From: Anaerolineales bacterium
Lineage (GTDB): Bacteria > Chloroflexota > Anaerolineae > Anaerolineales > Villigracilaceae
Direction: 5' to 3'
Assembly (NCBI GenBank): GCA_023382575.1
Contig: JAHDWC010000012.1
Location: 1-40,776 of the forward strand
DNA: 40,776 nucleotides
The position numbers and the translations under genes are program-made. This document shows positions 19,029-40,776 of the stretch, one piece after another. A model generated the notes under the pieces. It did not search any database and was not told where the DNA came from. It was given only the letters and a program-made list of their open reading frames with translations. The number at the start of each line of letters is the position of its first letter. Within the stretch, counting starts at the first letter, position 1.

Positions 19029-19115
19029 GGGGAGGTGCCAGAGTGGTTGAATGGGACGGTCTCGAAAACCGTTGTGGGCTTCGGTCCACCGAGGGTTCGA
19101 ATCCCTCCCTCCCCG
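19029..19115 (+). tRNA. tRNA-Ser(CGA)
   Basis: Acceptor GGGGAGG pairs with CCTCCCC, and a D-arm follows. The anticodon stem ACGGT/ACCGT encloses CTCGAAA with anticodon CGA (reads UCG). A long variable arm (GTGGGCTTCGGTCCAC) makes it a class II tRNA as expected for serine. The T-arm is GAGGG-TTCGAAT-CCCTC and the discriminator is G. The CCA end is not encoded. Confidence 0.96.
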
Positions 19116-32236: not shown

Positions 32237-34255
32237 TTATGAATTCTCCATTTCTTTATCCATTGATTGATTATGTAGTAATTCTTCGACAGCTGCGATC
32301 TGTTCTTCATCACCGATGAAGCCAACGCGGTCATTCGCCTCAAACACCGTGTGAGATTTTGGGTTTGCCATGGCTTCGTTCTCGCGCAATATCGCCACGA
32401 TGGAGGCGCCTGTCCGTGCGCGCAGGTTGGCTTCGGCGAGCGTCTGCCCAATGAGCGGACTGCCCGGCAGCAACGTCAGCCAGGTGACCTCTATATTTTT
32501 GGTAGCATGGATCAGGTCATGTAAGAAGCGATGTTCTTCTTTCGTATTGATCTGCATGTCATAGTGATCGTGGCGGACGGCATCCATATAGCGGATAATT
32601 TCCTGTAGTGGGAAATCCAGTTTTAATAAAGTGTGACGGACGATTTCCAATCCGCCTTCGAGTTCGGGGTGGATGACATCCTGTGCGCCAAGTTCTGCAA
32701 GATGTTCGATGCCCGCTTCGGTGGTGGCGCGCGCAATGATGGGCAGTTCTGGCGCAATATCGCGTGCGGCGGCAACCACCAATCCGCTGGCAGCTTCGTC
32801 GGGTCCTGCCACCACGAGCGCACGCGCACGCTCCAGCCCGGCATGTGTCAATACCTCCGAGTTGGAGGCGTCGCCATATAGGTTGGGAATGCCGCGCTGA
32901 TTGAGTTCATCGATACGTTCTGCATCGGAATCGATCACCAGGTGGGGGATGGACATCTGTCCGAGCAGATTCGAGATATGACGCCCGACTCGTCCGTAAC
33001 CGATGATTGCCACATGCCCCTCGACCTTTTTCTCCGCTGGCAGCGGACTGGGATGATGACGGTCTAACAGCCGCCATAAAGCCGGAATCTTGCGCAACCA
33101 TTTTTCGGCGGGAGTGATGAGGCGGAACATCATGGGGTTGACGGTGATGGAGAGCAGCGATCCCGCCAGAATGAGCGAGTACTGATCCTGATTCAAAATA
33201 CCCAAACTGACTCCCGATTGGCCAAGAATGAAAGAGAATTCGCCGATCTGACTCAAGCCTGCGGCGACGACCAAGGCCGTGCGTCCTTGCCAGGGGAAGA
33301 TCGAGCCAAGCATTAATGTGATGAGGGTTTTTCCAATAACGATCAGCAGGGTGAGAAAAATCACATAGTGAATATTGTTGAAAAGATAAATTGGATTGAC
33401 CAACATACCAATGGAGACGAAAAACAAGACGGCAAACGCCTCACGGAAGGGGAAGACATCTGCGCCGACCTGATGACTGAGCGGCGATTCGCTGACGACG
33501 ACGCCTGCCACAAATGCACCCAACGCAAAGGAGACGCCGAACAATTCCGCGGCGGCAAGTGCTGTCCCAAGGGTGATGGCGAGAATGGCAAGGATGAATA
33601 ACTCACGCGAGCGGGTGTGGGCAATGCGCAACAGAATCCACGGGATGAGGCGCTTGCCGACGAAGAACAGTAATAAAACAAAAGCGCTTGCTTTGACCAG
33701 AGTTAATGCAAGCGCCTGCCAATCAAATGGTCCGTTGATGTGTGCCAATGTCGGCATGAGGACGAGGATCAGGACAGTGGCGAGGTCTTCCAGCACCAGC
33801 CAGCCTACGGCGGCTTGTCCATGGGGTGTGCTGAGCAAGCCATTGTCCATTAAACCGCGCAGCAGGACGACTGTACTTGCGATGGAGATGGCAAGTCCCA
33901 GCACAATGCCGGCAGAGGGTGTCCAACCCCAGAGTTGACTCAGCCCAAATGCCAGTAACGTGGCGAAGGTCATTTGTCCCAGCGCGCCTGGGATGGCAAT
34001 GGAGCGAACTTTCCATAAGTCGTTGAGCGAGAAGTGAAGCCCCACTCCAAACATCAAGAAAATAACGCCCAATTCTGCAAGCTGGCTGATGGTTCCTGTG
34101 TCTCCAACAAAGCCAGGCGTGAATGGGCCAATGGCAATCCCCGCCAGCAGATACCCGACAATCGTCGGCAACCCGATGCGACGTGCAACCACCCCGCCGA
34201 TAAAAGCCACCACCAACGCAACCACAATGTTGATGATCAATGTAATTTCGTGCAT
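32237..34255 (-). CDS. Kef-type cation:proton antiporter with TrkA domains
   Basis: A 672-residue protein. The N-terminal Na+/H+-exchanger domain has about 12 helices (residues 1-385; IGLPTIVGYLLAGIAIGPFT, GVSFALGAFVAGVVV). A TrkA-N nucleotide-binding domain follows (HVAIIGYGRVGRHISNLL), then TrkA-C (about 580-665, LPGSPLIGQTLAEANLRART). This resembles KefB/KefC or YbaL: potassium or sodium efflux coupled to proton entry, gated by a dinucleotide or other ligand. GGAGG precedes the ATG. RidA follows at once on the same strand. Confidence 0.93.
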   Translation of the reverse strand: MHEITLIINIVVALVVAFIGGVVARRIGLPTIVGYLLAGIAIGPFTPGFVGDTGTISQLAELGVIFLMFGVGLHFSLNDLWKVRSIAIPGALGQMTFATLLAFGLSQLWGWTPSAGIVLGLAISIASTVVLLRGLMDNGLLSTPHGQAAVGWLVLEDLATVLILVLMPTLAHINGPFDWQALALTLVKASAFVLLLFFVGKRLIPWILLRIAHTRSRELFILAILAITLGTALAAAELFGVSFALGAFVAGVVVSESPLSHQVGADVFPFREAFAVLFFVSIGMLVNPIYLFNNIHYVIFLTLLIVIGKTLITLMLGSIFPWQGRTALVVAAGLSQIGEFSFILGQSGVSLGILNQDQYSLILAGSLLSITVNPMMFRLITPAEKWLRKIPALWRLLDRHHPSPLPAEKKVEGHVAIIGYGRVGRHISNLLGQMSIPHLVIDSDAERIDELNQRGIPNLYGDASNSEVLTHAGLERARALVVAGPDEAASGLVVAAARDIAPELPIIARATTEAGIEHLAELGAQDVIHPELEGGLEIVRHTLLKLDFPLQEIIRYMDAVRHDHYDMQINTKEEHRFLHDLIHATKNIEVTWLTLLPGSPLIGQTLAEANLRARTGASIVAILRENEAMANPKSHTVFEANDRVGFIGDEEQIAAVEELLHNQSMDKEMENS

Positions 34256-34310
34256 AATTCCTCCAGTACTCTATTAAGTTAGCTCTCGTATCAATAAATT
34301 CATTTTACAC

Positions 34311-34347
34311 AAAAAATTCCGCATCCCTTCTGAGAATGCGGAATTTT
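34311..34347 (-). terminator. Terminator of the liv operon
   Basis: On the minus strand AAAATTCCGCAT pairs perfectly with ATGCGGAATTTT around an 11-nt loop and continues as T's. It lies about 55 nt past the livF stop. Confidence 0.9.
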
Positions 34348-34402
34348 AATAAAAGATTATCCTTACGGGCGGGATTTTGAGACGCTTCGTTCTCGCTGAG
34401 AG

Positions 34403-35113
34403 TTAATGTCCGCCAAGATAAGCTTCGATGACGCTCGAATCTTGCAGCAAGTCGTCGCCGGTACCTTGCATAACGATCTTGCCGGTTTCCAGCACATAGG
34501 CGCGGTCTGCAATTGCCAGCGCCATTTGAGCATTTTGCTCCACCAAAAGAATACTTGTGCCTTGTTCGTTGATATCTTGAATGATGTCGAAGATCTGTTC
34601 CACCAACAACGGGGAAAGTCCCATCGAAGGCTCATCCAGCAGCAGCAGGGAAGGATGCGCCATCAGTCCGCGCCCGATTGCCAGCATTTGCTGTTCGCCG
34701 CCGGAGAGCGTTCCACCGAGTTGGTTGCGGCGTTCTTTCAAACGTGGAAAACGCTCGAAAACGGATTCCATGTCACGGTTAATCGCAGCGCGGTCAGCGT
34801 GAATGTAAGCGCCCATCTCCAAATTTTCGGTGACGGTCATGCGCGGGAAAATTTTGCGTCCCTCCGGCACATGGATCACGCCCTTGCGGACGATGTCCTG
34901 CGGCGGAACTTCCTCAAGCACCTGGCCTTCGAACGTCACCGAGCCTTCACGCGGACGCAGCAGCCCTGAAATGGTCTTCAATACCGTGGATTTGCCTGCT
35001 CCATTTGCGCCGATCAACGCGACTACTTCGCCTTTGTCGAGATGAAAGCTCACGCCCTTGAGGGCGTGAATAGCTCCGTAATAAACTTGTAAATTTTCAA
35101 CGTGTAGCATCAT
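34403..35113 (-). CDS. livF: Branched-chain amino acid ABC transporter ATPase LivF
   Basis: A 236-residue ATPase: Walker A GANGAGKST (35-43), signature LSGGEQQMLAIGRGLMAHP, Walker B LLLLDEPSMGLSP, H-loop ILLVEQNAQMAL. The DEPSMGLSPLLV and VEQNA forms are typical of LivF. It pairs with LivG under the LivHM channel. The start overlaps livG by 17 nt; two ATG codons in tandem (35113 and 35110) are possible. Confidence 0.95.
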   Translation of the reverse strand: MMLHVENLQVYYGAIHALKGVSFHLDKGEVVALIGANGAGKSTVLKTISGLLRPREGSVTFEGQVLEEVPPQDIVRKGVIHVPEGRKIFPRMTVTENLEMGAYIHADRAAINRDMESVFERFPRLKERRNQLGGTLSGGEQQMLAIGRGLMAHPSLLLLDEPSMGLSPLLVEQIFDIIQDINEQGTSILLVEQNAQMALAIADRAYVLETGKIVMQGTGDDLLQDSSVIEAYLGGH

Positions 35114-35921
35114 GGCGCTGCTTCTTTCGTAATTGATATTTCTTCGTCAGGCTGGTCACGTCAGGACCGAGATACGCCTCGATCACGCGCTGATTGGACT
35201 GGATTTCTTTGGGCTTGCCTTCGGCGATCTTCGTGCCATAGTCCAGTACACTGATCTGGTCGGAGATGCCCATGACCACGCGCATGTCGTGTTCGATCAA
35301 CAAGATGGTGATGCCCAACTCATCGCGCAAGTTGCGGATGAAGTGAGTCATGGTGTCGGTCTCCTGCGGATTCATTCCAGCAGTTGGCTCATCGAGCAAA
35401 AGCAGGCGCGGTTTGCTGGCCAGCGCGCGCGCGATCTCCAGCCGACGCTGTGCCCCATAGGGCAGGTTGCGCGCAAGCGTATCGCCCAGCCCTTCCAAGC
35501 CGACAAATTTCAACAGGCGGCGAGCTTCTTCAATGGCTTGCTTCGCTTCGTCCCGCTCGCGGCGCGTGGAAAGGATCGCATCCACCCAGTTCGCTTTGAA
35601 GCGCGGATACTGCCCGACGATCACATTCTCGATGGCGGTCATATCGCCGAACAGGCGGATATTCTGATAAGTGCGAGCAATGCCCATATCTGCAACTTTG
35701 TATGTTGGCTGTCCTTGAATCGCGTTACCAAAGAATTCGATCTGTCCCTGCTCGGGCACATAATATCCTGAAATGCAATTGAAGAGCGTGGTCTTGCCTG
35801 CGCCGTTCGGTCCGATGATGCTGGCGATGGCATGTTCAGGCACAACCACATCAACGGTATTGACGGCCGTCAACCCGCCGAAAATTTTGGAGACTTGTTT
35901 GGTTTCGATGCAGGTGGTCAT
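35097..35921 (-). CDS. livG: Branched-chain amino acid ABC transporter ATPase LivG
   Basis: A 274-residue ATPase: Walker A GPNGAGKTT (37-45), the LivG-type ADMGIARTYQNIRLFGDMT, a signature region NLPYGAQRRLEIARALA, Walker B LLLLDEPTAGMNP, and ILLIEHDMRVVMGISD. The NLPYGAQRRLE replacement of LSGGQ and the EPTAGMNPQET ending are standard for LivG. It overlaps livM upstream by 4 nt and livF downstream. Confidence 0.95.
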   Translation of the reverse strand: MTTCIETKQVSKIFGGLTAVNTVDVVVPEHAIASIIGPNGAGKTTLFNCISGYYVPEQGQIEFFGNAIQGQPTYKVADMGIARTYQNIRLFGDMTAIENVIVGQYPRFKANWVDAILSTRRERDEAKQAIEEARRLLKFVGLEGLGDTLARNLPYGAQRRLEIARALASKPRLLLLDEPTAGMNPQETDTMTHFIRNLRDELGITILLIEHDMRVVMGISDQISVLDYGTKIAEGKPKEIQSNQRVIEAYLGPDVTSLTKKYQLRKKQRHDATR

Positions 35922-37471
35922 GGTTGCGCCTCCTTGCTCGACGTTTGAGCGGATTTTTCCAACACTGGGCGTTTCGCCGGGAGGAAGCCTTCCGGTCGCA
36001 GGCGCATCATCACGATCAACAACACGCCGAAGATCAGCAGACGATAGTTCTCGGTTTCGCGCAGAATTTCGGGCAAGCCCTTCAAAGCGAACGCGCCGAG
36101 GAACACGCCGGGGATGTTGCCGATGCCGCCCACGATCACCAGACAGATGACGTTGATGGATACCATCAGTGCATGGTCATCAGGTCCCGTGAACTGATTG
36201 CGCGAAGCGAACAACACACCCGCAAGTCCCGCCATTGCCGCACTGAGTGATAACGCCAAAAGTTTCGACGCAAAGGCATTGATGCCCGTGGCGCGCGCCA
36301 CCGTCTCATCGAGATTGATCGCGTACCACGCCTTGCCTGTGCGCGAATTTTGCAATCGATAGGCGATGAACGTCACTACCAGTACGGCAATAATGATGAG
36401 ATACATAAAGTCCACATCTGAGACGAACGACCTACCGAACAAAGTTGGTCCGGCAATATCGCGCACGCCGCGAGGTCCCGCTGTGTATTCAGTCATCAGA
36501 TCGCTCTTGAGCAGAATGCGGACAATCTCCGCAAAGCCAAGCGTCACAATGGCCAAATAATCGCCGCGCAAATTCAAAATGGGCAAGCCGATCAACAAGC
36601 CGGAAATGCCAGCAGCCAAGACGCCCAAGCCCAAGGCGAGCCAAAAGTTCATGGTCAGGTTATGCGGCTCCGGCGCGGTCAGAAGCGCGAAGGTGTACGC
36701 GCCCACCGCAAAGAACGCCACATAGCCGATCACCAATTGTCCCGCCCAGCCGGTGATGATGTTCAACCCCAGCCCAAGGATGATGTAAATTCCAACCGTG
36801 CCAAAAACGTAATTCCAATACCCGCCCCACGTGCGCGGAAGGATAATCAACAACGCGGCAACCAGCAGCCAAAATCCATACCGCGCATATGGGCTGTTTG
36901 TCACCCTGGCAACACCTTCAGAGCGAATGGTTTTGCGGACGGATTCTGTGATGTTGCGCGCGCCGGATTTGACTCCGTCATGCGTGCGCAGGTAGAAGGA
37001 TAAACCCGCCGCAGCCGCCCCGGAAACTGTCAGCACTCCCAGAAGCATTAAACTTCCCGTCAGCGGACTCTGATTCATCAAGAACAGTTTGGTCGATTCG
37101 GGAGAAACCATCGGGAGATATGTGCGTGGGTCAATGGCGTTGGCGTTCAGCGTGCCAAAGATGAACCCGACCACTGCTGAAATCAATCCACTCACTGCTC
37201 CAGCGGATGCACCCGCTGTCAAGGCGCGTTTCAATGTGTCTGGTTCGGTCAGCGAACGTGCCGCGGCAGTAATGCCCGCCCACGCGCCCATCAACACCAT
37301 GAAGATGACAAAAAAGGTCAGCGGGGGAGTGTTGTAAGATGATGATACGCCGAACAATTTTCCCACCAAGCCAGCGCCAGTAACCGTGAACCCGATCAGG
37401 AACATGATCGCGATTACGATCCCAAAGATGACTCCGGTGCGAAGTCCTTTATCCAATGCCGATGATCTCAT
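35918..37471 (-). CDS. livM: Branched-chain amino acid permease LivM with N-terminal extension
   Basis: A 517-residue permease. The conserved LivM core occupies about 200-500 (LNIITGWAGQLVIGYVAFFA, NLRGDYLAIVTLGFAEI, AGLAGVLFASRNQFTGPDD, GGIGNIPGVFLGA). The first 190 residues form an extra membrane region with about four helices and no clear relation to LivM; E. coli LivM also has an N-terminal extension but a shorter one. It overlaps livH by 4 nt and livG by 4 nt. Confidence 0.92.
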   Translation of the reverse strand: MRSSALDKGLRTGVIFGIVIAIMFLIGFTVTGAGLVGKLFGVSSSYNTPPLTFFVIFMVLMGAWAGITAAARSLTEPDTLKRALTAGASAGAVSGLISAVVGFIFGTLNANAIDPRTYLPMVSPESTKLFLMNQSPLTGSLMLLGVLTVSGAAAAGLSFYLRTHDGVKSGARNITESVRKTIRSEGVARVTNSPYARYGFWLLVAALLIILPRTWGGYWNYVFGTVGIYIILGLGLNIITGWAGQLVIGYVAFFAVGAYTFALLTAPEPHNLTMNFWLALGLGVLAAGISGLLIGLPILNLRGDYLAIVTLGFAEIVRILLKSDLMTEYTAGPRGVRDIAGPTLFGRSFVSDVDFMYLIIIAVLVVTFIAYRLQNSRTGKAWYAINLDETVARATGINAFASKLLALSLSAAMAGLAGVLFASRNQFTGPDDHALMVSINVICLVIVGGIGNIPGVFLGAFALKGLPEILRETENYRLLIFGVLLIVMMRLRPEGFLPAKRPVLEKSAQTSSKEAQP

Positions 37472-38574
37472 AATTTTTCCTCGGAAAGTTTCTCGCCCAA
37501 AATACCGGACGGGCGCACGATCAGAACCAGCACCAGGATCGAAAAGGCGATCACGTCCTTAAGTTGAAAATCAATGCCCATGCCGGCGGGACCGATGGCT
37601 TCGATCACGCCCAACAGAATCCCACCCAGCATCGCCCCCGGAATGTTGCCGATGCCGCCCATCACCGCGGCGGTGAACGCCTTGATGCCTGGCAGGAAGC
37701 CCGTGAAGTGATTCACCAATCCCATGTGAATGCTCCACATCACGCCTGCCGCGCCAGCCAAAGCGCCGCTGATGATGAAGGTCTTGCTGACCACATCGTT
37801 CACGTCCACGCCCATGAGGAAAGCAGTATTCTTGTCCTGTGCCACGGCGCGCATGGCGCGTCCTAACTTGGTGCGCTGCACCAGAATGAACAAGCCAATC
37901 ATCAAGAGGGTGGAAAGCACCAATGAGAAGACGCCGGTGTACGAGATCAACACGTCATTTCCACCGACGTTGATGACCCAACCTGCAGCTCGATCCAAGA
38001 CATCGGGGTTGACCACATTCTTGCGTTGCGGACCAAAGAGAAGCATCGCCAGGTTTTGCAAAATGGTCGATGCGCCGATGGCGGTAATCAACAGGATCAA
38101 ACGTGGGGCGTTGCGCAGCGGTCGATAGGCGATTTTTTCAAGGTAGAAACCCGCTGTTGCCGAGATCGTAATTCCCACTACGAACGCCAGCAGGACTGAG
38201 AGGAATGGATTGGCGTTGAGAAAGTTCAGGTCTGGGCTGGCAGTTGTCGGGGCGGGAATGAAGCGCAAAATTTCAAATGTAAAATATCCGCCGAACGCTC
38301 CCAACATCATCACTTCGCCATGCGCGAAATTGATCATGAACATGATGCCGTATACAAGGGTGTAGCCGATGGCAATGAGCGCGTACATGCCCCCCAGGAT
38401 CAATCCAGAAAGACCAAAACGGACCCATGTATCGGCGCCAAAATGCTGCTGAAGAACAACTACGTTGTAAATTCGCCAAAAAAGAAATGCGCTGATGACA
38501 ATTCCTATGGCGGTGCGGATATACCGTTCCAAACGCAGCTTGTTATGTGTGGATGTTGAGATGGGTTTATCCAT
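37468..38574 (-). CDS. livH: Branched-chain amino acid permease LivH
   Basis: A 368-residue permease with about eight helices. The core is typical of LivH: GGMYALIAIGYTLVYGIMFM followed by INFAHGEVMMLGAF, a YRPLRNAPRLILLITAIGAS segment, RAVAQDKNTAFLMGVDVNDV and GGIGNIPGAMLGGILLGVIE. It has about 60 extra residues at the N-terminus, including an additional helix. It lies 112 nt downstream of livK, with a hairpin in the gap, and overlaps livM by 4 nt. Confidence 0.94.
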   Translation of the reverse strand: MDKPISTSTHNKLRLERYIRTAIGIVISAFLFWRIYNVVVLQQHFGADTWVRFGLSGLILGGMYALIAIGYTLVYGIMFMINFAHGEVMMLGAFGGYFTFEILRFIPAPTTASPDLNFLNANPFLSVLLAFVVGITISATAGFYLEKIAYRPLRNAPRLILLITAIGASTILQNLAMLLFGPQRKNVVNPDVLDRAAGWVINVGGNDVLISYTGVFSLVLSTLLMIGLFILVQRTKLGRAMRAVAQDKNTAFLMGVDVNDVVSKTFIISGALAGAAGVMWSIHMGLVNHFTGFLPGIKAFTAAVMGGIGNIPGAMLGGILLGVIEAIGPAGMGIDFQLKDVIAFSILVLVLIVRPSGILGEKLSEEKL

Positions 38575-38603
38575 AAAGTTGTGACGCCTTTTCAGTAATC
38601 AAT

Positions 38604-38635
38604 GGGGATTGCCGCATCATCATACGGCAATCCCC
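38604..38635 (-). promoter_or_regulatory. livK-livH intercistronic hairpin
   Basis: GGGGATTGCCG and CGGCAATCCCC form a perfect 11-bp stem with a 10-nt loop in the gap between livK and livH. No T-run follows on the minus strand, so it is not a simple terminator. It may stabilise the livK mRNA 3' end so that the binding protein is made in excess over the permease. Confidence 0.65.
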
Positions 38636-38686
38636 AAAATAGACCCTTAGCCGTCAGGCAGAAGGGCAAACAATATCGCGGCTGAA

Positions 38687-39877
38687 TTATTCAGCGGGAA
38701 TCCATTCGCCGCCTTCGACGATGTAGAACACCGGACCGGAGGCATTGCATTCGCCGTTTTCCTGACAGGAGATGACGCCAGCGATGCCCTGGTAGCCATT
38801 CATCGAGCGGACCGCTTCCACGAGGGCAGCGCGCGGGATGTAGAGGGTGTCACCTTCGACGATCGCCACGCTGTTGATCGCTTGGATCAAAGCGCCGACG
38901 GCATCATAGGAGTTCCAGGTGTAAGCGGAGAGCACACCAGCTTCGGTTCCGTACGCAGCGAGATAGGCTTCGTTGAACGCGAGGATTGCATCGGTTCCGG
39001 GGGGAACGAGGGTCGCGGCGTATACGCCTTCACCCTTGTCGCCGACTTTGGCGAGGAAGTCCTTGCCATAGATGCCGTCACCGCCGAAGAAGATCACACC
39101 GGAGAGACCCGCCTGTTCCATCTGGTTGACAAGCACAGAGGCTTCCGCGTTGTAACCGCCGAAATAGATCGCTTCGGGTTCCGCCGCAGCCACGGCCGCG
39201 AGGGGCGCGCTGTAATCAGATTCGCCCGGAGTGATGGCTTCAAAAGCCACCGATTCGCCGCCAAGGGAGACAAAGGTTTCTTCCACTACTTTGGCGAGTC
39301 CCTGACCGTAATCGGTGCCATCGTGGATGAACGCAAGTTTCTTGATGCCCAGCGTTTCATACAGGTAGGTGGCAGCGCCCTTGCCTTGTTCCGCATCAGT
39401 GAAGGCGTTGCGGTTGAAAACCGCGGAGCCCTGAGCGGTCAGGTCGGGGTTGGTAGCAGAGGGAGACATCATCGGGATGCCCGCCTTTTCGTAGATGGGC
39501 ATGGCAGCTGCAGTCGCGCCAGAGAAGGCATGACCAGCCATGGCAACAAAGGTCGGATCTGAGACCAGTTTATTCGCCACTGCCGCGCCGCCTTCCGCGC
39601 CGCCGCCATCATCTTCGATCGCCATTTCAACTTTCCAGCCCTGAACATCGCCGAGGTCGGCGACAGCCAGTTTCATGGCATTGGACATGTCCACACCAAA
39701 CTGGGAATAATCGCCCGTCATCGGACCGGCAAATCCGATTTTGACGGTTTGATCCTTATTGATCACGGCACAACCCAATTCCGTGTTGCAAACTTCCGGC
39801 GCTGTAGCAGCAGCCGGTCCGCAAGCCGCCAGCACAAATGCGACGACGAGCATGACAAATAGTACGATTCGTTTCAT
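38687..39877 (-). CDS. livK: Branched-chain amino acid ABC binding lipoprotein LivK
   Basis: A 396-residue periplasmic-type binding protein. The signal peptide MKRIVLFVMLVVAFVLAAC has its lipobox Cys at 19. The core has VKIGFAGPMTGDYSQFGVDM, VAMAGHAFSGATAAAMPIYE, FNRNAFTDAEQGKGAATYLY and YNSYDAVGALIQAI-like segments of the LivK/AmiC group. It captures branched-chain or related amino acids for the LivHMGF complex. The start at 39877 has AAGAAGAG upstream; the longer frame to 39964 is not supported by a signal peptide. Confidence 0.93.
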   Translation of the reverse strand: MKRIVLFVMLVVAFVLAACGPAAATAPEVCNTELGCAVINKDQTVKIGFAGPMTGDYSQFGVDMSNAMKLAVADLGDVQGWKVEMAIEDDGGGAEGGAAVANKLVSDPTFVAMAGHAFSGATAAAMPIYEKAGIPMMSPSATNPDLTAQGSAVFNRNAFTDAEQGKGAATYLYETLGIKKLAFIHDGTDYGQGLAKVVEETFVSLGGESVAFEAITPGESDYSAPLAAVAAAEPEAIYFGGYNAEASVLVNQMEQAGLSGVIFFGGDGIYGKDFLAKVGDKGEGVYAATLVPPGTDAILAFNEAYLAAYGTEAGVLSAYTWNSYDAVGALIQAINSVAIVEGDTLYIPRAALVEAVRSMNGYQGIAGVISCQENGECNASGPVFYIVEGGEWIPAE

Positions 39878-40002
39878 CTCTTCTTTGCTCCTATGAAAAT
39901 ATTTCCGCACGAGGCGCACTCCGCTTCCAGACCCAGATGCGAAGCACCCTTGTGATACGGTCAATGTATGACCAACATCCTCCCGCCGGTCAATGCAGGT
40001 AT

Positions 40003-40038
40003 AAAAAAGAACCCCGGGTAGGATTTTGCAGCCCGGTT
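40003..40038 (-). terminator. Candidate attenuator in livK leader
   Basis: On the minus strand AACCGGG pairs with CCC and GGTT, with a 2-nt GG bulge, and is followed by TCTTTTTT. It lies 125 nt before the livK ATG and downstream of the only good -10 in the region, so it would have to be bypassed for livK expression. Confidence 0.45.
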
Positions 40039-40256
40039 GATATCAGGCTGATGGCCTATCCGTTGAAAAGCTGATATTGGATGTAGGGGTATGCTTGCAG
40101 GTACGAGTAAAGGGGAAGGCAGGGAGCATCACATTAAATTGCTCCCACACATGGAATCAAATTTGAAATAGATTGCGTTTAAATACGGTTGTAGGAATCT
40201 ACCCGCTTGGTAGCGCTAAATAATTTGAGATTTTTTTCACAAGCCGTTGGTATTAC

Positions 40257-40262
40257 ATTATA
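40257..40262 (-). promoter_or_regulatory. Candidate livK promoter with palindrome
   Basis: TATAAT on the minus strand. The -35 position is occupied by the perfect palindrome CTCGTAA-TT-TTACGAG (40271-40286), which could be an operator. No TTGACA is present. Confidence 0.4.
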
Positions 40263-40303
40263 AATGGATTCTCGTAATTTTACGAGTGCCAATCTTGACA
40301 AAA

Positions 40304-40339
40304 CAAAAAGCCCGCCTCCATTGTGACGGAAAGCGGGCT
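40304..40339 (-). terminator. Terminator of 2-oxoacid oxidoreductase gene
   Basis: On the minus strand AGCCCGC pairs with GCGGGCT around a 17-nt loop and is followed by TTTTTG. It lies 19 nt past the stop of the oxidoreductase gene. Confidence 0.85.
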
Positions 40340-40357
40340 GTGCCGGTAAAGTGTAGG

Positions 40358-40776
40358 CTACGCTGGGACCTTATCCCATTCTTTCTGCGCGTGTTCAAAA
40401 CCACGCTTTAGTGCTTCGAAGTTCTTCGGCAAAAGATGTTTGTGACGCGCAGGTAAATGACCTTCGAGCGCTTTTTCCACATCTGCCACCTTGATCTCAG
40501 GCAGCGCCGTGAGCAAGGCACCGATTGCCACCATGTTGACCAGCTTGCGGTCACCAAGTTCTTCAGCGATCTCGTTGCATGGCACCAAGATGACGTGAAT
40601 ATCTTCACGCCTTCCCGCGCGATCCACCATGGATTGATTGACGATCAACGTCCCGCCAGTAGCGAGCAATTCTTCATATTTGTCGAACGAGGGCAGGTTG
40701 AGGGCAATTGCCAGCGGCGGATTCTTGACCAGTGGCGAACCGATCTCCGCATCGGCAACAACGACGGTGCAGTTTG
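40358..40776 (-). CDS. 2-oxoacid:acceptor oxidoreductase gamma subunit (partial)
   Basis: The last 138 codons of a minus-strand gene whose start lies beyond the right edge. It reads CTVVVADAEIGSPLVKNPP, then LPSFDKYEELLATGGTLIVN, VPCNEIAEELGDRKLVNMVA and ends near EWDKVPA. This is the C-terminal half of the POR gamma domain (pyruvate, ketoisovalerate or 2-oxoglutarate:ferredoxin oxidoreductase). In these complexes the gamma subunit is one of two to four chains that decarboxylate 2-oxoacids to acyl-CoA with ferredoxin. The substrate cannot be chosen from this piece. An internal TTG at 40669 is not the start, as the frame stays open and conserved to the edge. Confidence 0.9.
   Translation of the reverse strand, partial: NCTVVVADAEIGSPLVKNPPLAIALNLPSFDKYEELLATGGTLIVNQSMVDRAGRREDIHVILVPCNEIAEELGDRKLVNMVAIGALLTALPEIKVADVEKALEGHLPARHKHLLPKNFEALKRGFEHAQKEWDKVPA

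Follow-up and report, generated by a model that had tools for sequence, protein, structure and literature searches.

A putative Rex-type operator and a weak terminator-like hairpin in the 5′ control region of a livKHMGF-type operon of an uncultured Anaerolineales bacterium

Background

In the genome of an Anaerolineales bacterium (Chloroflexota; Villigracilaceae; assembly GCA_023382575.1), an ABC transporter operon of the branched-chain amino-acid type is preceded by 480 nt that contain no evident gene. This raises the question of how the operon is controlled. A preliminary description of the stretch, made from the sequence alone, had proposed an RNA-based control of amino-acid uptake or a separate small RNA. 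Here, the stretch was analyzed in the context of the window, i.e. the whole stretch of DNA under analysis (40,776 nt, positions 1 to 40,776 of contig JAHDWC010000012.1), of the remaining genome and of related genomes.

Genomic context of the livK leader

The stretch extends from 40357 to 39878 on the minus strand. It is flanked by the end of the gene for a 2-oxoacid:ferredoxin oxidoreductase gamma subunit (POR domain) and by the start of livK. Among the ORFs listed within it, other than one continuing into livK, the longest encodes 54 aa, and none is of gene size. livK (38687-39877, minus strand) is the first gene of the operon and encodes a substrate-binding protein of the branched-chain amino-acid type with a Peripla_BP_6 domain. 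Its match to NCBIfam PRK15404 is below the family cut-off. The permease and ATPase genes livH, livM, livG and livF of the same operon (34403-38574, minus strand) were assigned by domain search, and the ribosome-binding region of livK, ATAGGAGCAAAGAAGAG (39878-39894, minus strand), was aligned with that of relatives. The assignment of the stretch as 5′ regulatory region of the livKHMGF-type operon, comprising its promoter and an untranslated leader, is supported.

An antiporter gene follows the liv operon in the window, so that the operon is flanked by this gene and the oxidoreductase gamma gene (34230-40776). Judged by eye, six genomes (G031, G027, G046, G036, G010 and G005) have the gamma gene directly followed by a gene whose start resembles that of the antiporter, so that the liv block was either inserted between the two genes or lost in these genomes. 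A tRNA gene is found elsewhere in the window at 19029-19115 (Rfam, 59.1 bits).

The terminator of the upstream gene lies within approximately the first 60 nt of the stretch (40357-40297), which are not part of the livK leader. On this point, the preliminary description is corrected. The intrinsic terminator of the oxidoreductase gamma gene (40297-40338, minus strand) consists of the stem AGCCCGC..GCGGGCT and a T-run, with an energy of about -20 kcal/mol; its core was found by the terminator scan. A search of 101 genomes, the own genome included, with the leader DNA found this element only, in G056, where 38 nt downstream of the corresponding gene match it. Of fourteen 100-nt segments that were folded, none is exceptional apart from the two in which the upstream terminator lies (z = -3.5 and -3.2).

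Promoter of the liv operon

A TATAAT -10 hexamer is located at 40262-40257. Its sequence context, AATCCNTTTATAAT, was reached in 1 of 3000 shuffles, or in 4 of 3000 if up to one mismatch was permitted; the one-base gap in this test was allowed only after the sequence had been seen. The -10 region AATCCATTTATAAT (40257-40270, minus strand) is unique in the window and is taken as homologous to the promoter of formyltransferase-kynU-liv loci in relatives. Upstream of the formyltransferase gene, eight close relatives carry AATCCTTTATAAT (6/8), ATGCCTTTATAAT (one) or TTGTTTTATAAT (one). No TATAAT-like hexamer is present within 320 nt in G391 and G343, two more distant loci of the formyltransferase type. 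When the promoter region of the window was compared with those of eight relatives, the best local match was GTGAAAAAAATCTCAAATTA with L068, and a match as good was obtained in 1 of 500 shuffles. The livK promoter was not reported by a sigma-70 scan, presumably because no fitting -35 element is evident, and the same scan gave no second promoter on the livK strand ahead of livK.

The perfect palindrome CTCGTAAAATTACGAG (40271-40286), which had been described together with the -10 hexamer, is located upstream of the latter. Its significance is doubtful, as a palindrome with 7-bp arms that is equally good occurred in 58 of 500 shuffles. A role as a regulon operator was rejected: at up to two mismatches, nine places were found in the genome (itself included) and nine for the control. 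The -10 hexamer of the preliminary description stands; the palindrome does not exceed chance.

Formyltransferase-kynureninase-liv loci in relatives

Among 49 loci of relatives, the gene order formyltransferase-kynU-livK is found in ten and kynU-livK in one. In the closest livK orthologs for which upstream sequence is available (L064-L069 and L078, as well as L071 with a short upstream piece), a kynureninase gene is encoded about 75 nt upstream of livK, and the kynureninase gene of relatives is preceded by a formyltransferase gene. L074, with a livK that is 79% identical, has no kynureninase gene upstream. The livK promoter of the window is taken to be the ancestral operon promoter, and the formyltransferase and kynureninase genes are absent from this position. 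The loci L190-L192 and L194 show the order formyltransferase-kynureninase-livKHMGF, which suggests that the liv-type transporter may serve kynurenine/tryptophan breakdown there rather than plain branched-chain uptake.

It is possible, if unlikely, that the stretch is for the most part decayed sequence, i.e. that the loss of the formyltransferase and kynureninase genes left the ancestral promoter and debris including a 3′ fragment of kynU, and that only the promoter matters. Both genes are kept between promoter and livK in close relatives, and the proximal 143 nt of the leader match kynU C-termini (WSYIDRITRVL with WESVDRIRRVI) at a level reached by 1 of 1000 shuffles. However, 12 of 1142 window tiles score equally high against those C-termini, and the corresponding test at the DNA level was matched by 30 of 1000 shuffles. 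The whole leader was equalled in 54 of 200 shuffles against kynU and in 188 of 200 against the formyltransferase gene, and profile searches gave no significant result. A kynU fragment may be present near 39990-39950. As the main reading, a kynU/formyltransferase relic was rejected, being suggestive in one targeted shuffle test but not against tiles or over the whole leader.

A Rex-type operator downstream of the -10 hexamer

The preliminary description had missed a Rex-type palindrome, TTGTGAAAAAAATCTCAA (40225-40242), that is located 14 nt downstream of the -10 hexamer. With the predicted transcription start at 40250, it would span about +9 to +26. It deviates at one position from the relaxed pattern TTGTGAN6TCACAA and at two from the strict consensus. 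Shuffled leaders contained a site like that of livK in 2 of 2000 cases, and the strict consensus with up to two mismatches in 5 of 2000. In the excerpted text of PMC6391272, the Rex operator consensus is given as TTGTGAANNNNTTCACAA.

What led to the Rex reading was a piece of the leader, TTGTGAAAAAAATC, that by eye also precedes focA-like genes (five loci) and a nuoA-like gene in members of the family. Rex is encoded in the genome, on contig C161 (above NCBIfam cut-offs, plus PF06971). The pattern TTGTGAN6TCACAA with up to one mismatch is found at 20 places in the genome, compared to 3 for a reversed-pattern control, and the core TGTGAN6TCACA at 12 places, compared to none for the control. Besides the livK site, there are 19 such places, 18 of which were examined (one on C17 was left out). 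Nine of these 18 are located upstream of respiratory or redox genes. At seven sites the targets were assigned by Pfam, namely cytochrome bd, an MbhD-type protein, a 2Fe-2S thioredoxin/NuoE-type protein, NDH-2 (two sites), NapC/NirT and a protein of the nitrate-reductase-delta type; at two sites the genes encode multihaem proteins, identified by eye. The other nine examined sites are not beside redox genes, and three of them are inside ORFs. Several sites in the genome were seen by eye to lie directly 3′ of a -10-like hexamer, the position expected of a repressor site.

Taken over the own genome, the 20 places represent a putative Rex-type regulon of respiratory and redox genes. None is near rex itself, with no site of at most one mismatch within 2 kb upstream of the gene. 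Rex, a sensor of NADH/NAD+, often regulates its own gene. The motif TGTGA-N6-TCACA also fits regulators of the Crp/Fnr type.

None of 49 liv regions of relatives has a site with at most one mismatch within the 320 nt that precede its first gene; the site of the window, 357 nt before livK, falls outside this cut. Among ten formyltransferase-kynU-liv promoters, three have a site with two mismatches, whereas shuffles gave 0.235 on average and equalled this number in 1 of 200 cases. Over all regions, 5 of 50 have sites with two mismatches or fewer, the region of the window itself, cut at 320 nt, being scored as negative; shuffling gave a mean of 0.97 and a maximum of 4 in 100 rounds. The position of the weaker sites in relatives is not conserved: they overlap the -35 in two genomes and are located downstream of the -10 in one.

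The locus resembles a Rex regulon in having a palindrome of the TTGTGA-N6-TCACAA type beside a -10 hexamer in a genome that encodes Rex and carries such sites at cytochrome bd, NDH-2, MbhD- and NuoE-type genes. It differs in that the livK site is mismatched (one position relaxed, two strict) and in that the putative target is an amino-acid ABC transporter. The best-supported prediction for the operon, albeit not a proven one, is regulation by Rex or another protein that recognizes similar sites, e.g. a Crp/Fnr homolog. A search of the open-access literature found nothing on Rex in Chloroflexi. Concerning Rex-binding sites and branched-chain metabolism, the excerpted text of PMC9600882 has an aminotransferase as its branched-chain item, not a transporter.

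Structure of the leader RNA

The hairpin-forming segments to which attention had been drawn are present, but the livK leader shows no excess of RNA structure over shuffled sequences. For the RNA spanning 40252 to 39998, the folding energy is -53.5 kcal/mol, compared to -49.95 kcal/mol for shuffles (z = -0.76; 35 of 200 as good), and the fold of the whole leader has a z-score of -0.96, with 22 of 100 shuffles as good. A hairpin GGGAGCA-11 nt-TGCTCCC (40122-40146, minus strand; -10.7 kcal/mol) is located in the 5′ untranslated region; 7-bp hairpins at least as numerous as in the leader were found in 145 of 500 shuffles. In the livK-proximal part, a small hairpin GGTCA-TACAT-TGACC (39959-39973, minus strand) follows GGGAGGATG. 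Two unproven readings of this hairpin are a remnant of kynU and a faint analogue of the AAGGAGGTG element seen in other liv leaders. GGGAGGATG itself, 106 nt before livK, was considered as a AAGGAGGTG element and is too short to count.

A terminator-like hairpin, CCGGG(13)CCCGG followed by GGTTCTTTTTT (40003-40036, minus strand; stem 40036-40014, -8.3 kcal/mol), is positioned between promoter and livK as described, which makes premature termination possible. The same pattern occurred in 17 of 1000 shuffles, and in 10 of 1000 with five G-C pairs. Its stem is weaker than the terminators flanking the operon (about -20 and -17 kcal/mol). Over the whole window, the terminator scan gave 21 hits, 11 of them within genes. 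The hairpin at 40036-40003 is moderately unusual and a possible partial terminator or attenuator.

As a full attenuator, the leader would stop transcription at 40014-40003 unless an alternative pairing (e.g. AGCCTG/CGGGCT) formed, governed by translation of a 35-codon GTG frame or by a ligand. Mutually exclusive hairpins can indeed form, since the alternative hairpin AGCCTG-AUAUCAAC-CGGGCT (40030-40049, minus strand; -7.8 kcal/mol) excludes the terminator stem, and the 35-codon frame (40150-40043) ends 6 nt before that stem. The low frequency of the terminator pattern in shuffles also speaks for this reading. However, the competing antiterminator-like pairing was equalled in 85 of 300 shuffles and is thus not better than chance, and the frame begins with GTG, lacks an evident ribosome-binding site and shows no richness in Leu/Ile/Val. 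Nor did any of the listed leader ORFs (at least 20 aa, read by eye) encode a peptide rich in branched-chain residues.

Search for homologues of the leader

No Rfam 15 covariance model matched the leader at its gathering score; only four matches, with E-values of 1 to 8.5, were obtained nearby. A known riboswitch, a T-box or another Rfam family was rejected on this basis, and the statement that no known riboswitch is recognizable holds.

In 152 genomes of the family, the best match to the leader comprises 24 nt (E = 0.0016) and lies within an open frame; in 400 genomes of the order, a single 40-nt match was found, namely of the piece 40083-40044 in G351, which was discarded, as it belongs to the long open frame of an apparently unrelated gene. 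The sets of 101, 152 and 400 genomes overlap, and each includes the own genome. Scoring was limited to 6, 4 and 2 first-look candidates per genome, respectively, and may therefore have overlooked a leader that has diverged. Apart from the TTGTGAAAAAAATC piece, short matches to parts of the leader in relatives (17 stretches) were set aside; among the matches listed, many are within ORFs. The leader as a repeat or mobile element was rejected as well, given a single copy in the genome and no plasmid match. Positions 178-199 of the leader query, the hairpin stretch around CTGCCCTCCCCTTTACTGGTA, were matched in at least ten genomes of the family, two of which were looked at. L138 and L139 contain an intergenic hairpin around CTGCCCTCCCCTTTACTGGTA, with the matched stretch near 509-552 and no Rfam match.

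The RNA-sensor control of uptake that had been proposed is not borne out for this sequence: the stems are unconserved in the relatives searched, an outcome that the preliminary description itself had named as speaking against it, and fold, antiterminator and leader peptide are unsupported. Taken as a whole, the preliminary description is confirmed in part, in that the features it named exist while the majority do not exceed what chance would give.

Attenuator-like liv leaders in other genomes of the order

A terminator scan, run without a shuffle control, gave a hit in 24 of the 49 regions of relatives, 22 of them before a livK without kynU. Alignment A1 comprises 22 loci with a terminator and a small ORF, chosen from 40 (L209, L211-L213 and L215-L232). 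These leaders share a layout of a small hydrophobic ORF, an element GGTTRGG..GGC that is complementary to a terminator arm, the terminator and then livK. The terminators are found 94-209 nt before livK (21 measured). The ORFs have 33-39 codons, with 33% Ile/Leu/Val and 64% hydrophobic residues. Over 11 gapless pairs, codon positions 1, 2 and 3 differ 135, 93 and 108 times, which indicates that the composition of the ORF, not its exact sequence, seems to be kept.

The GGTTRGG..GGC element lies close to the ORF end, and its pairing partner is the 5′ terminator arm. The native pairing has a mean energy of -17.2 kcal/mol, compared to -14.5 and -13.2 kcal/mol for swapped partners, and 20 of the 22 loci reach p values of 0.02 or less against mononucleotide shuffles. 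The antiterminator helix is 77% paired, and 50% or less when slid. Its covariation score is 0.175 (0.089 or less when slid; as high in 18 of 500 column shuffles). Only one pair is changed on both sides, a value as high in 490 of 500 shuffles, and neither the share of paired cells (135/500) nor the pair types (443/500) exceed column shuffles. RNAalifold applied to A1 recovered the terminator stem, with compensated changes in 2 of 10 pairs. Attenuation of the liv operon elsewhere in the order is plausible, with limited support from covariation.

The covariance model of these leaders, R1, scored 79 bits on L076 and 77 bits on L075, which are taken as the contigs of two A1 members, 31 bits on L208 and 25 bits on L045. 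Its best score in the window, 19.7 bits, falls on an unrelated terminator. On the livK leader, it gave nothing with default filters; with filters off, the best score was -0.1 bits, and -2.3 bits near the terminator. The leader of the window resembles the A1/R1 leaders in belonging to the same operon and in having a terminator-like hairpin ahead of livK. However, neither the small hydrophobic ORF nor the antiterminator element is present in it, and R1 does not detect it. It is not a member of the A1 set.

A near-invariant AAGGAGGTG is present 80-105 nt before livK in L197, L199-L203, L206-L208, L210 and L045. It is similar to an extended Shine-Dalgarno sequence, yet without a consistent start codon behind it. 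GGAGGT-like copies also occur in many of the terminator-bearing liv leaders. No prior description of attenuation at livK or in Chloroflexi/Anaerolineaceae was found among the papers listed for the open-access literature.

The 22 genomes of the order in which a terminator, a hydrophobic ORF of 33-39 codons and a complementary antiterminator precede the same operon lend some weight to an attenuator in the window, too. Against it stand the lack of a homologous leader in the relatives searched, the empty R1 search and the unremarkable fold (z = -0.76 and -0.96), and its probability is low.

Proposed control of the liv operon

The best-supported control at the liv operon of the window is at the level of the promoter. 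In the explanation that we prefer, and to which we assign a probability of about one half, an inherited promoter would be combined with Rex-type repression and a weak early terminator that has no sensing switch of its own. A repressor bound to the Rex-type palindrome, 14 nt past the -10 hexamer, would block initiation or early elongation. Rex would repress the liv operon at low NADH and release it when NADH accumulates. Some 215-250 nt into the transcript, the weak terminator-like hairpin may then end part of the transcripts early, probably without a metabolite- or ribosome-sensing switch.

Known attenuation systems are similar in part. As in the leader-peptide transcription attenuators of branched-chain amino-acid genes (PMC5794164, PMC11857589 and PMC1262725), a terminator-like hairpin precedes an amino-acid operon and exclusive hairpins can be drawn, whereas the window has no rich leader peptide, no supported antiterminator and no conservation. 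The 'ABC-leaders' of PMC2965389 are premature terminators found upstream of genes for ABC transporters, and the leaders described there have antiterminators and motifs in common. The livK leader has in common with them the predicted early terminator ahead of an ABC transporter gene, but neither a supported antiterminator nor a shared motif. The terms 'Chloroflex', 'liv' and 'branched-chain' do not occur in the main text of PMC2965389.

Two further arrangements were considered. It seems quite unlikely that control has two layers, with a Rex-type gate on the liv promoter and an independently evolved attenuator (40036-40003, AGCCTG/CGGGCT) that meters read-through as a divergent counterpart of the 22 leader-ORF attenuators. 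Very unlikely is the separate small RNA of about 240 nt that had been suggested as an alternative, which would extend between the promoter (40262) and the terminator (40003) and might respond to the redox state, with livK transcribed by read-through: promoter, Rex-type operator and terminator-like end are in the right order, but no homolog was found in the overlapping sets of 101, 152 and 400 genomes, there is no Rfam match and no excess structure, and the promoter scan gave no second same-strand promoter before livK.

For the liv operon more broadly, leaders composed of a small hydrophobic ORF, an antiterminator and a terminator are found in relatives, with no match to Rfam 15 in the 19 of 22 A1 loci scanned, and in some relatives the liv leader has the appearance of a genuine RNA switch. 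At the locus of the window, the preferred combination of an inherited promoter, Rex-type repression and a weak terminator would tie amino-acid uptake to the redox state by NADH-responsive repression. It represents a candidate link from the NADH/NAD+ balance to amino-acid import in an uncultured lineage of Chloroflexota.
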